Positions 39,885 through 44,195 of a stretch of DNA of 64,000 nucleotides are shown one piece after another. Numbering within the stretch: position 1 is the first letter of the stretch; every line of letters begins with the position of its first letter. Origin of the DNA: Porphyrobacter sp. SLTP (GTDB taxonomy: Bacteria; Pseudomonadota; Alphaproteobacteria; Sphingomonadales; Sphingomonadaceae); the NCBI RefSeq assembly GCF_009905735.1, contig NZ_JAAALE010000010.1, positions 1 through 64,000 on the forward strand, in the 5' to 3' direction. The translations under genes were made by a program, and so were the position numbers. The notes under the pieces are model-generated. The model was not told where the DNA came from. It saw nothing but the letters and a program-made list of their open reading frames with translations, and did no database searches.

Positions 39885-41189
39885 ATGGCAACGCGCTCTC
39901 TGAGGCCCCTCACGCTCGGCGGCCAGCCGCTCACGGTCGATCGTGCCCGGCGGATGCGCTGGACGGCGACCGGCATGCTGGCGGCGATGGCGCTGATCTT
40001 CATCGCCACCCACGGTCTGGCAACCACCGGCCACCCCGCCTGGGCCTATCTCAACGCCTTTGCCGAAGCGGCGATGGTGGGCGGTCTGGCGGACTGGTTC
40101 GCGGTGACGGCGCTGTTCCGCCACCCGCTTGGCCTGCCGATCCCGCACACCGCGATCATTCCCGAAAACAAGGACCGCATCGCCGACACCATGGCGCAGT
40201 TCCTGCGGGAGAATTTCCTAACCCCCGCCGTGGTCGCGCGGCGGATGTCGGCGATGAACGTCGCCAAGGCAGCAGGCGAGTTCCTCGCGGCCTCGCCCGA
40301 ACGGGGCCCCAAAGGCGAGATGGTGGACGAACGCTCGCGGATCACGTCCGGCGCGGCGGAATTGCTGGCGGAGGTGCTGGAATCGCTCGACCCCGACCGG
40401 CTCGGCAATCAGGTGCGTGCGGGCCTCGCAGGCCAGTTGGCGAAGCTCGACATCGCGCCGCTTGCAGGCCGCATGATCGAGACAACGATGGCGGACAAGC
40501 GCCACCAGCCGCTGATCGACGGCTTCGTGCGCTGGGCGGGCCTCACCATTGAGGACAATGAGGAAACCCTGCGCGACATCATCCACCAGCGTGTCGCAGG
40601 TGTGCTGCGCTGGGCGGGGATCGACAAGACCATCTCCTCCAGCGTGCTCGACGGGCTCTACAAGCTGCTCGCCGAGGTGCTGGTGAACCCTGATCACCCC
40701 CTGCGCGGCAAGATCGAGGAAGGCCTCGCCAAGCTCGGTCAGGATTTGCAGCACGATCCCGAGACCCGCGCCAAGGTCGAAGACATGAAGCGCGATCTGA
40801 TCGCTAACCCCGCCGTGGCGGTGTGGTGGACCGGGGTGTGGGAGCGCATCCGTCGTTCGCTGATCACCCGCGCCCGCGACCCCGAAAGCAGCATGGGCGA
40901 GGAAATGCGCAACATGCTCTCCGAACTCGGACAGGCCTTACAGGCGGACGAGCGGCTACAGCTCCAGATCAACCGCTTTGCCCGCCGCACCATGGTCGGC
41001 GTGGCCACCCGTTATGGCGACCAGATCGTTCGACTCGTGTCAGAAACGGTCAAGCGCTGGGACGCGACCACTATCACGGACCGCGTCGAAGGCGCCGTGG
41101 GCCGCGACCTTCAGTTCATCCGCATTAACGGCACGCTGGTCGGCGGGCTGGTGGGGATGACACTGCACTTTATCACGACGGTGCTTTAG
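39885..41189 (+). CDS. DUF445 family membrane protein (YjiN-like)
   Basis: 434 aa. N-terminal hydrophobic segments (TGMLAAMALIFIATHGLA, EAAMVGGLADWFAVTALFR) precede HPLGLPIPHTAIIPENKDRI, the DUF445 hallmark. A long helical region follows, and the protein ends GRDLQFIRINGTLVGGLVGM with a final hydrophobic helix. Function is unknown. A decayed copy of its 3' end lies at 42116-42288, evidence of a local tandem duplication. Confidence 0.93.
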   Translation: MATRSLRPLTLGGQPLTVDRARRMRWTATGMLAAMALIFIATHGLATTGHPAWAYLNAFAEAAMVGGLADWFAVTALFRHPLGLPIPHTAIIPENKDRIADTMAQFLRENFLTPAVVARRMSAMNVAKAAGEFLAASPERGPKGEMVDERSRITSGAAELLAEVLESLDPDRLGNQVRAGLAGQLAKLDIAPLAGRMIETTMADKRHQPLIDGFVRWAGLTIEDNEETLRDIIHQRVAGVLRWAGIDKTISSSVLDGLYKLLAEVLVNPDHPLRGKIEEGLAKLGQDLQHDPETRAKVEDMKRDLIANPAVAVWWTGVWERIRRSLITRARDPESSMGEEMRNMLSELGQALQADERLQLQINRFARRTMVGVATRYGDQIVRLVSETVKRWDATTITDRVEGAVGRDLQFIRINGTLVGGLVGMTLHFITTVL

Positions 41190-41220
41190 GGAGCGACGCG
41201 CCCCCCACAGACCCGCCCGC

Positions 41221-42078
41221 TCAGCGGGTGCCGCGCTGCGCCTCGTAGGCGGTGGCCGCGTAGCTCACCCGCGCCTTCCAAAAGGAGGCGACCGGCGCGC
41301 CTGCGGCATCGCGCGCGGGGTTGTAGCGCGCTTTGGTCATTGCCGCGCAGGTGGCGGCATCAATATCAGCGTGACCCGATGAGATGATGATCTGGCAATC
41401 GGTCGCCTTGCCCGCCGCATCGACCAGCGCAACCGCCTCGACCGGCCCGCTGCGCAGGTTGCGCGCAGCGATCCTCGGATATTCGAACTTCGCTTCGTCC
41501 GCCGTCACCGCTTGGCTGAGGGCGTACTGCACCGCGGGATCAAGACCCCAGCCGCGCATGATCTGCGCAGTGCAGTCATTGAGGTCACGGGCAGCATCGG
41601 CGAGCGATCCGGTGGCGAAAGTCACCGCGTCACCGCCCTGGGACACAGTGATTTGCTCCACGCCCTCAGCGGTGGCGGTATCGATACGGCCACTGCCAGC
41701 GGTGGGATCGGGCTTGTTCGTGTCGAGCCACACGCCCTGAAGAATAGCGACGTTGCCGTATTCGCGGTTCGGCTCGATCCGGGCCTTCTTCTCGAATCCG
41801 CCGTGGTCGGCGGCGAAGCTAACGCGCAGCGGGCTATCGGAGCGCAGGTCGCCAAGCGAGGGTCCTGCCAGCGCGATACCGACCGCCGGGCCCGGGGCGT
41901 TCTGCTCGAGAATGATAAGGTGTGGCTTGCCACCGGCCTCGAAGCTGCGCTGCACTCGGCACACCCCGCCCTCGCTTGAGGCCTCCCAAGGCGCGGCAGG
42001 CGTAGCGATATGAGCTGGCGCGGCGAGTGCAGGGGTGGCGGTGGAGAGGGCAGCAAGCGCAAGGAGGGGGAAACGCAT
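41221..42078 (-). CDS. Secreted TonB-C-like protein, paralogue 1
   Basis: 285 aa. A signal peptide (residues 1-19, ending ALA) is followed by a N-terminal half with conserved C-x-V/L-x-R, then HLIILEQNAPGP and a C-terminal domain resembling TonB-C: VEAVALVDAAGKATDCQIII, DAATCAAMTKARYNPARDAA, GAPVASFW. The two Cys of that domain are conserved in TonB-like secreted proteins. There is no N-terminal transmembrane anchor, so it is not a classical TonB. It is paralogous to 42285-43193: both have LILEQ-type motifs, a C-terminal G-P/AG-K-x-x-SFW and equal order. Function unknown. Confidence 0.8.
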   Translation of the reverse strand: MRFPLLALAALSTATPALAAPAHIATPAAPWEASSEGGVCRVQRSFEAGGKPHLIILEQNAPGPAVGIALAGPSLGDLRSDSPLRVSFAADHGGFEKKARIEPNREYGNVAILQGVWLDTNKPDPTAGSGRIDTATAEGVEQITVSQGGDAVTFATGSLADAARDLNDCTAQIMRGWGLDPAVQYALSQAVTADEAKFEYPRIAARNLRSGPVEAVALVDAAGKATDCQIIISSGHADIDAATCAAMTKARYNPARDAAGAPVASFWKARVSYAATAYEAQRGTR

Positions 42079-42115
42079 TGGGCAAGTCCTTTCTTCGGGG
42101 ACCGCCAAGCTGCCG

Positions 42116-42288
42116 AGCGAATCCTGCAGTTTCAAGTCGATATGCGACGAGCGGAGGCGGATGGGCGAGCTCTCGGAGACCGTCCTGAGGGAGTGATGGG
42201 CCGCGACCTCCAGTTCATCCGCATCAGCGGCACGCTGGTCGGCGGGCTGGTGGGCACGACGCTGCACGCCTTGGGGGCGGTGCTCTAA
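42116..42288 (+). pseudogene. Decayed duplicate of the DUF445 gene 3' end
   Basis: The last 93 bases match the end of the DUF445 gene (41097-41189) at roughly 80% by eye, including an identical 27-base run at 42228-42254 versus 41129-41155. The encoded end is GRDLQFIRISGTLVGGLVG. Upstream, CTGCAGTTTCAAGTCGAT (42124-42141) resembles CTACAGCTCCAGATCAAC of the intact gene, followed by deletions and frame shifts. It has no start of its own and overlaps the stop of the paralogue at 42285. Confidence 0.85.
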
Positions 42289-43193
42289 CCGGGGATCCGG
42301 ATAACGCGCGGGGCGGTCATCGTCACGTAGATGGTCACTGGCCAGAACGACCGCATCGGTTTGCCCGCCGCGTCCAGAGCAGGCTCCAGCTGTGCCCGCG
42401 CCACGCCCTTGCACACTTCCGTTTCCAGCTTGGCGTCGGTGTTGTCGACCAGCGAGCAGCTTTCCACGCCGCCATCTGGCCCGACAATGGCCCGGATCCG
42501 CATGGCGTCCATTCCTCCGGATTTGTTGAGCCGTTCCCACGGGACCGCAGAGTATATCTTGCCCATGGCTTTTTCGGTGTTTTGCGGCTGGGCGGCGCGC
42601 GTCATGGTGCGATGCTGCTCCGCATCGAGACCCCAAGAGCCTACCAGATCGATCAGGCATTCGTTCATCACCTTGACCGGGCCGTCGAGCGGTCCGGTCA
42701 TCAGGCGCACCTGATTGTTCGAATCGGCGATCTCGACAGACCTGACCCCCGCGCCGACCGCGGGGTCGAGCCTCTGGGGGGGCTTGGGTGGCGCATTTCT
42801 TCCGAGTTTTGCCTCTAACGGGTCATCTCCGCTCAGGCTGACCCACGTGAAGTAGAGCGCCCGGCCGTAACCATCCAGCGGCCCGACCAAAGGCTCCTGC
42901 ACGGTTGGCGGGCGATCGGGGAGAAACCGGACAGTGTTGCCTTTCGCCGACCATTTGATCGCGTCGAACGCAGGCCCAGCGAGCGCCAGACTGAAGTGCT
43001 CTCCCGGAAAATACTGCTCAAGGATCATCACATTGCGACTGCTCTCGGGCCCGAACAGGCGAATCAGCCGGCACTTGTCCTTGTCGAAATCGACGCTCCA
43101 CTTGCTGCCCGGCTCGAGCACGACGGGCTCGGCCGCAGCAGCAGGCGTGATTGCGGTCGCAAGGGCGGCGAGGGCAAGAGCGGCACGACGCAT
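42285..43193 (-). CDS. Secreted TonB-C-like protein, paralogue 2
   Basis: 302 aa with a signal peptide (about 1-21). The N-terminal half contains KCRLIRLFG and [20 protein letters not shown], matching CRVQRSF and LIILEQNAPGPAVGIALAG of the paralogue at 41221. The C-terminal half has [37 protein letters not shown] and SFWPVTIYV, a TonB-C-like fold. No TonB box partner or ExbBD gene is near. Its GGAGG Shine-Dalgarno lies inside the 3' arm of the etfA terminator hairpin, with a seven-base spacer to the ATG. Function unknown. Confidence 0.8.
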
Positions 43194-43194
43194 G

Positions 43195-43229
43195 AAAAAA
43201 CCTCCGGCGAGCGCGCAGGCTGCCGGAGG
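43195..43229 (-). terminator. etfA terminator overlapping the ribosome binding site of the next gene
   Basis: On the minus strand, CCTCCGGC and GCCGGAGG pair (8 bp) around a 13-base loop and are followed directly by TTTTTT. The terminator lies 36-71 bases after the etfA stop. The GGAGG of its 3' arm is also the Shine-Dalgarno of the TonB-C-like gene whose ATG is at 43193. Confidence 0.85.
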
Positions 43230-43265
43230 CTTCTTTCATTTTCAAGTTTTTGCGCGTTCCGCGCC

Positions 43266-44195
43266 TTACAGCGCCGCAGTCAGCTCCGGCACCGCCGTGA
43301 ACAGGTCAGCGACCAGCCCAATATCCGCGACCTGGAAGATCGGCGCATCGTCGTCCTTGTTGATGGCGATGATGACCTTGGAGTCCTTCATGCCGGCAAG
43401 GTGCTGGATCGCGCCCGAGATGCCGATGGCGAAGTACGCTTCCGGGGCCACGATCTTGCCGGTCTGGCCGACCTGATAGTCATTGGGGACATAGCCCGCG
43501 TCGACCGCCGCACGGCTCGCGCCGATGGCGGCGCCGAGCTTGTCGGCGAGCGGGGTGATGGTCGCCTCGAAGGTTTCCGCATCCTTCAGCGCGCGGCCGC
43601 CCGAGACGATGATCTTGGCGCTGGTCAGTTCGGGACGCTCGCTCTTGGCGATTTCCGAGCTGACGAAGCTGGAGATGCCGGCATCGCCTGCGCCGCCAAC
43701 GGCTTCGACGGTGCCCGAGCCGCCTTCGGTCGCGGCCTTTTCGAACGCGGTGCCGCGCACGGTGATCACCAGCTTGGCATCGGTCGATTCGACGGTGGCG
43801 ATGGCATTGCCGGCGTAGATCGGGCGGGTGAAGGTCTTGGGGCCTTCAACCGACAGGATCTCGCTGACCTGCATCACATCGAGGTGCGCCGCAACGCGCG
43901 GGGCGACGTTCTTGCCCTGCGTGGTGGCAGCGGCGAGGAACGCGTCATGGTGGCCCATCAGCTCGGCAGCGAGCGGAGCGACGTTTTCGGCCAGCCCGTT
44001 GGCATAGGCAGCATCATCCGCGACGTGGACCTTGCCCACGCCTGCGATCTTGGCCGCAGCTTCGGCAACCGAACCGCAGTTGTGACCGGCGACGAGCAGG
44101 TGCACTTCGCCCAGCTTGGATGCAGCCGTGACGACCGCGAGGGTCGCATCGTGCACCTTTGTGTTGTCATGTTCGACGAGAACCAGAGTCTTCAT
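43266..44195 (-). CDS. etfA: Electron transfer flavoprotein subunit alpha
   Basis: 309 aa. The N-terminal domain starts [20 protein letters not shown]. The C-terminal FAD domain has [36 protein letters not shown] and [30 protein letters not shown], the canonical ETF-alpha fingerprint. With EtfB it passes electrons from acyl-CoA dehydrogenases to ETF-ubiquinone oxidoreductase. It follows etfB after a 108-base gap that contains a palindromic repeat. Confidence 0.97.

Follow-up and report, generated by a model that had tools for sequence, protein, structure and literature searches.

The closest published parallel to the locus described here is provided by the T6SS effector-immunity clusters of Vibrio cholerae and their orphan immunity arrays (PMC5361080). 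These are described as a fixed locus at which divergent alleles have moved between strains, with new modules stacked beside old ones and the 3′ end of the displaced gene remaining. The same work rejects duplication as the origin of the arrays, since their members do not cluster together, and proposes homology-facilitated illegitimate recombination with the displaced 3′ end as the mechanism.

A comparable arrangement is found in the window analysed here, a stretch of 64,000 nucleotides from Porphyrobacter sp. SLTP. The 3.4 Mb genome of this strain (G000; genomes are cited by survey label where needed) has its nearest relatives in Erythrobacter, including strains deposited as Porphyrobacter. As in the V. 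cholerae arrays, tandem genes at the locus and its counterparts are closer to genes of other genomes than to their neighbours (49/49, interval genes compared), and a displaced 3′ remnant lies between members in the window, in G022 and in E. oryzae (G073). Unlike in those arrays, the remnant derives from a conserved neighbour, a DUF445 gene, rather than a replaced toxin; unsystematic inspection of the interval showed no toxin or secretion system; the gene family is of a predicted IalB-TonB_C type; and the pattern spans a genus. Among the papers listed in searches of the open literature, none deals with a secreted-gene locus between DUF445 and etfA.

The locus is bounded on the left by an intact DUF445 gene (PF04286; 39885-41189, + strand; Pfam 383 bits), which is 97-99% identical to those of Porphyrobacter sp. 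UBA7686 (G084), E. ramosus (G074) and G001. On the right lies an etfA-like gene (43266-44195, - strand), 97.7-99.7% identical to those of the same three genomes. Between them are two genes of one secreted-protein family, both on the - strand: gene A (41221-42078), of allele lineage A, whose start is taken as the in-frame ATG at 42078 within a longer mechanical ORF, and gene B (42285-43193), of allele lineage B. A spacer upstream of gene A (42079-42156) leads to the putatively decaying remnant of a DUF445 3′ end (42157-42288, + strand), with about 43 codons and a stop (residues 392-434 by tblastn). The stop codons of this fragment and of gene B overlap. The order given in an earlier note on this DNA, with DUF445 (+), secreted gene (-), DUF445 fragment (+) and secreted gene (-), is borne out by these coordinates.

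The two DUF445 ends form a direct repeat of 110 nt with 78% identity and a spacing of 1099 nt, its intact copy at 41079-41188 (+) and its second copy at 42178-42287. The longest exact run is the identical 27-base stretch noticed earlier, found at 41129 and 42228, and the similarity extends beyond it across the full 110 nt. The fragment's frame scores above the Pfam cut-off (36.6 vs 33.8 bits, profile positions 329-365 of 368). Its match to a profile of intact ends (nhmmer, E 4e-23, vs a best value of 0.0012 in 20 shuffled sets) is well above chance. A second DUF445 3′ end, as the earlier note had proposed, is therefore present and marks a junction.

The history built on this repeat was not supported. 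It was suggested that a unit of about 1.1 kb, containing the DUF445 end and the secreted gene, had been duplicated in tandem, and that the two secreted paralogues then diverged strongly, possibly under diversifying selection. The 1099-nt spacing and the repeated convergent arrangement agree with such a duplication, as does the homology of the A and B proteins, which extends over almost their full length at just 25-30% identity. The closest relatives of each gene, however, lie elsewhere: gene A shares about 61% identity with its counterparts in E. oryzae and E. colymbi (G025), and gene B about 60% with those in E. ramosus and G022. In a maximum-likelihood tree of the 104 family members from this interval in Erythrobacter, A groups with six genes (from G025, G102, G073, G077, Erythrobacter sp. 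WG (G104) and E. cryptus (G035)) with 100/100 support, and B, distant from the A clade, groups with three (G022, G074, G103), also with 100/100 support. This tree has some long end branches, and 22 of its 101 inner branches are poorly supported, the A and B clades not among them; both groups were picked from BLAST lists beforehand, so the tree tests their unity and is not a blind discovery of them. A and B as a locally duplicated paralogue pair were thus rejected, as they fall in separate clades and have their best matches elsewhere.

Other tandem loci behave in the same way. Two or three members are present at 23 loci, and for none of the 49 genes involved is the neighbour the best match, in a comparison that includes one locus from a contig left out of the copy count below and is confined to genes of the DUF445-etfA interval. 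Tandem neighbours are 22-41% identical, and their similarity lies below that obtained by random regrouping (mean 98 vs 122 bits; 29 of 2000 regroupings as low). This test supports the conclusion that tandem neighbours are different old alleles and not mutual duplicates.

The wider picture comes from 114 genomes of the genus, searched with A, B, DUF445 and etfA. From these, 104 stretches running from DUF445 towards etfA were taken, belonging to 103 genomes (one is in two pieces). A family profile found 104 full-length members across the fetched stretches. Copy numbers omit four stretches (three genomes) whose two flanks are not fully joined; in the remaining 100, where a contig end sometimes truncates DUF445 or etfA on its outer side, no full-length member is present in 24, one in 54, two in 20 and three in 2. 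The earlier question of whether relatives carry one copy or two thus has a broader answer, with zero to three members per locus, and the nearest species by DUF445 have one gene each. At best, these single genes share 38% (G084), 60% (G074, B type) and 36% (G001) identity with A or B. The single-gene state is known for both lineages, for A in G104 and G035 and for B in G074 and G103.

Copies split between frames occur at five loci, four of them among the 24 without a full-length member. These loci (L144, L171, L150, L167 and L164, in G121, G122, G123, G127 and G091, respectively) appear, from their reading frames, as would be expected of decaying copies. In G101, G078, G021, G071 and G024, no member lies between DUF445 and etfA, and full-length or partial members are found elsewhere in the genome, so the family also relocates. 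Across the wider taxonomic family, the profile matches 194 of 199 genomes at E<=1e-10, many of the matches listed being to the TonB domain only. Tandem full-length members are also present outside the genus sample among the matches listed, for instance in G252 and G260.

The interval has other occupants as well. In more distant species, it holds a 221-aa sigma-70 region 2 protein (L148:1863-2525 (+), L149:1396-2058 (+)) or an ORF weakly like FlbT, below the cut-off (L151:1971-2453 (-), L156:1323-1838 (+)). Eight other ORFs from the interval were scanned; four have a Pfam match, with no toxin family among them. The DUF445-etfA interval may be a general insertion spot.

The divergence of A and B stands against well-preserved surroundings. 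In comparisons with G084, G074 and G001, the flanking DUF445 and etfA-like genes reach 97-99.7% identity, vs 26-58% for A and B. Relative to G084, nine of 13 other ORFs are 95-99.7% identical and four 86.5-93.7%, vs 27% for A and 37% for B. Relative to G074 and G001, other ORFs range from 74.5 to 99.5%, DUF445 and etfA being at 97-99%, vs 27% for A in both and 58% and 34%, respectively, for B; the ORFs in these comparisons come from mechanical calling, and probably not all of them are genes. For G000 and G084, where DUF445 is 99.3% and etfA 99.7% identical, the best allele match is 38%. Nine genome pairs have DUF445 at least 97% identical, and their alleles are at least 80% identical in four pairs and 23-60% in the other five.

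In 20 of 22 genome pairs whose DUF445 genes are at least 95% identical, the best-matching alleles have a higher synonymous divergence (pS) than DUF445; these pairs have genomes in common and so are not independent. For example, gene B in G000 and G074 has a pS of 0.56, vs 0.25 for DUF445 and 0.24 for etfA. The two exceptions, and a third pair barely above equality, are same-allele pairs with pS level with the flanks, which indicates that synonymous change in the gene is not inherently fast. The raised divergence therefore makes the alleles older than the flanks. It is supported by these tests that the alleles predate the divergence recorded by the flanks, and that related alleles are found in different species and at different positions.

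Diversifying selection does not fit as the main cause. The dN/dS ratio is 0.09-0.35 in 15 chosen pairs, in a gene-wide test that may miss a few sites, and synonymous divergence is raised too. The strong divergence of the alleles thus reflects their age and their exchange, not rapid protein change after duplication. Taken with the separate clades and the lack of any neighbour as best match, this makes local tandem duplication followed by fast divergence highly improbable.

The remnants carry their own record. In the window, the fragment is 77% identical to the intact end of the same genome over 105 nt. The intact end itself looks native, given its 91-93% identity with those of G074, G084 and G001. 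Counted against the consensus of 42 intact ends, differences at codon positions 1/2/3 amount to 6/6/8 in the window fragment vs 0/0/7 in its intact end, and to 5/7/5 in the G073 fragment. The near relatives G084, G074 and G001 (0/0/6, 0/0/6 and 0/0/7) are a fairer yardstick than the mean of all 42 ends (4.2/4.0/7.8), which is inflated by ends of different length that remain unaligned in an ungapped count. By these substitution patterns, the window and G073 fragments look like decay. Later homogenisation of the fragment with the intact end, the other explanation offered earlier, was rejected for the window on the 77% identity and the 6/6/8 changes. The G022 fragment matches the intact end of that genome at 98% identity, so it may be of recent formation or may have been homogenised.

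A profile search of 26 between-gene spacers found DUF445 ends clearly in three (the window, G022 and G073), so remnants were rejected as a general rule of the arrays. Two further matches are weak: G106 at E 0.00036 and G031 at E 0.0069, the latter poorer than the best match in 20 shuffled sets (0.0012; the next is 0.17). The search gave no DUF445 trace in the other 21, which means that other junctions must occur. A profile of the etfA-proximal spacer, built from 24 single-gene loci, matches nine of the 26 inner spacers at E<0.01, against a best value of 0.039 in 20 shuffled sets, and this spacer thereby recurs upstream of inner genes. In G106 and G031, the etfA-proximal match precedes the weak DUF445 match, which is the order predicted if the break fell in the gene-etfA spacer on one chromosome and within the 3′ end of DUF445 on the other.

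A direct repeat of a gene's 3′ end around a single gene also resembles attL/attR, and clear homology begins at a similar place in the DUF445 gene in three genomes. These features would suit site-specific integration at the DUF445 3′ end, with an element carrying gene A bringing a new 3′ end and leaving the old one as a direct repeat. However, the repeat-bounded unit contains gene A and leaves no room for a recombinase gene, and the repeat is absent from 21 of the 26 between-gene spacers. Searches of plasmids with gene A and of phages with gene B gave no match, and a plasmid-borne A or phage-borne B was rejected accordingly. Integration of this kind is very unlikely. Gene A could also have been imported from a distant donor, DUF445 homology being the sole anchor (one-sided homology-facilitated illegitimate recombination). 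This would produce the same final structure, and the mechanism is the one proposed for the V. cholerae arrays (PMC5361080). Against it, the six closest relatives of A that were found all lie in the same interval in the same genus (A was searched in the genus and in plasmids), and the intact 3′ end looks native; we regard distant import as unlikely.

The best reading, which we consider probable, is the stacking of swapped alleles by unequal exchange at a polymorphic DUF445-etfA locus. In Erythrobacter, this locus holds zero to three genes for the secreted protein of predicted IalB-like/TonB C-terminal type, and homologous recombination in the conserved flanks would usually swap one allele for another. 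An occasional crossover would be both unequal and illegitimate, one chromosome giving DUF445-A with the spacer beside etfA and the other giving the last ~100 bases of its DUF445, then B-etfA. In the product, DUF445-A-remnant-B-etfA, both flanking genes would be whole, and the stranded DUF445 3′ remnant would then decay.

Some evidence counts against unequal exchange. The left breakpoint lacks a spacer-profile match in the window's genome and in G022, as the spacers concerned have no match to the etfA-proximal profile among those listed (G073 reaches E 0.061). The 98% identical remnant of G022 is also expected from duplication of the end within one genome. No strain that could have served as the donor was seen. 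By local alignment, the spacer beside the remnant is common to the window (42079-42156) and to the spacer upstream of gene 1 in G073 (L102, about 2158-2270), yet their A genes do not pair as sisters in the tree, so an extra exchange is needed. The pattern suggests that the two share one junction and that exchange went on after it formed, which the model does not fully explain.

The gene product is predicted to combine two recognisable folds. In an AlphaFold2 model of gene A (mean pLDDT 91), the C-terminal domain resembles TonB C-terminal domains (9dc4_T, Z 12.0, rmsd 2.3, 85 aligned), and the N-terminal domain, residues 29-174, resembles IalB of Bartonella (3dtd, Z 10.5, rmsd 2.9, 126 aligned). 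Other structural matches of the N-domain are MotY (Z 7.7) and further rows below 5. Foldseek returned TonB at E 4.6e-4 and IalB at E 0.011. From the model, the predicted make-up of the secreted protein is an IalB-like domain joined to a TonB C-terminal domain. The predicted N-terminal domain shares the IalB fold and differs from IalB in its 11% identity, its fusion to TonB_C and its lack of a Pfam IalB match, IalB not being among the 13 Pfam families matched by the 104 members at E<=0.1. At the same threshold, 99 of the 104 members match PF03544, with gene A at 52 bits (cut-off 24.6) and gene B at 16.1 bits, below the cut-off.

The TonB energy transducer has an N-terminal membrane anchor and a long Pro-rich linker. 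The family shares the C-terminal fold of TonB C-terminal domain proteins (PF03544, TIGR01352) and is unlike them in that a predicted globular IalB-like domain precedes the TonB domain and in that gene B falls below the Pfam cut-off. In the model of gene A, a globular beta domain is predicted at about residues 24-175. The protein sequence opens with an alanine-rich, signal-like stretch, which may be a signal peptide or an anchor; a periplasmic location is probable. Five residues are invariant in the 104 members (W31, C40, G72, G223 and C228), and C169 and C244 are conserved in at least 90%. The two domains are about equally variable, with mean pairwise identities of 30% and 35%. The window's own genome has two more gene A matches, both to the TonB C-terminal part only (C12:77707-77937 and C23:156602-156850).

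What looked like a duplication becomes evidence for a locus that is hypervariable across the genus although both of its neighbours are highly conserved, and that is occupied by a secreted gene family for which no assigned function was found beyond the TonB domain. The DUF445 remnant records how stacked alleles can arise with neither a toxin gene nor a recombinase in the unit, and this makes the unequal-exchange model testable in strain collections. That near-identical species differ so much in a TonB-like secreted protein suggests that selection favours variety at the envelope. The protein might work in the periplasm, its TonB-like domain perhaps in contact with TonB boxes or with other partners in the envelope, and diversity could be kept since a rare or extra allele helps, as in immunity or receptor-guarding proteins. 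More speculatively, and with considerable doubt on our part, the IalB-TonB_C genes could form a previously undescribed arms-race-type polymorphic locus that guards or imitates the TonB-receptor interface, its alleles old, swapped via the DUF445/etfA flanks and stacked for wider protection. Such guarding could, for example, act against toxins or phages entering via TonB-dependent receptors.

A further feature lies between etfA and gene B, where a strong hairpin is predicted at 43185-43262 (-) of the window (MFE -33.3 kcal/mol, z -2.98). The last bases of its 3′ arm are GGAGG, after which come a T-run and the gene B ATG. The hairpin is absent from the output of the terminator scan. It may be an etfA terminator that doubles as the ribosome-binding site of gene B, and a strict pattern of this terminator/GGAGG kind occurs in 22 of 74 etfA-proximal spacers.
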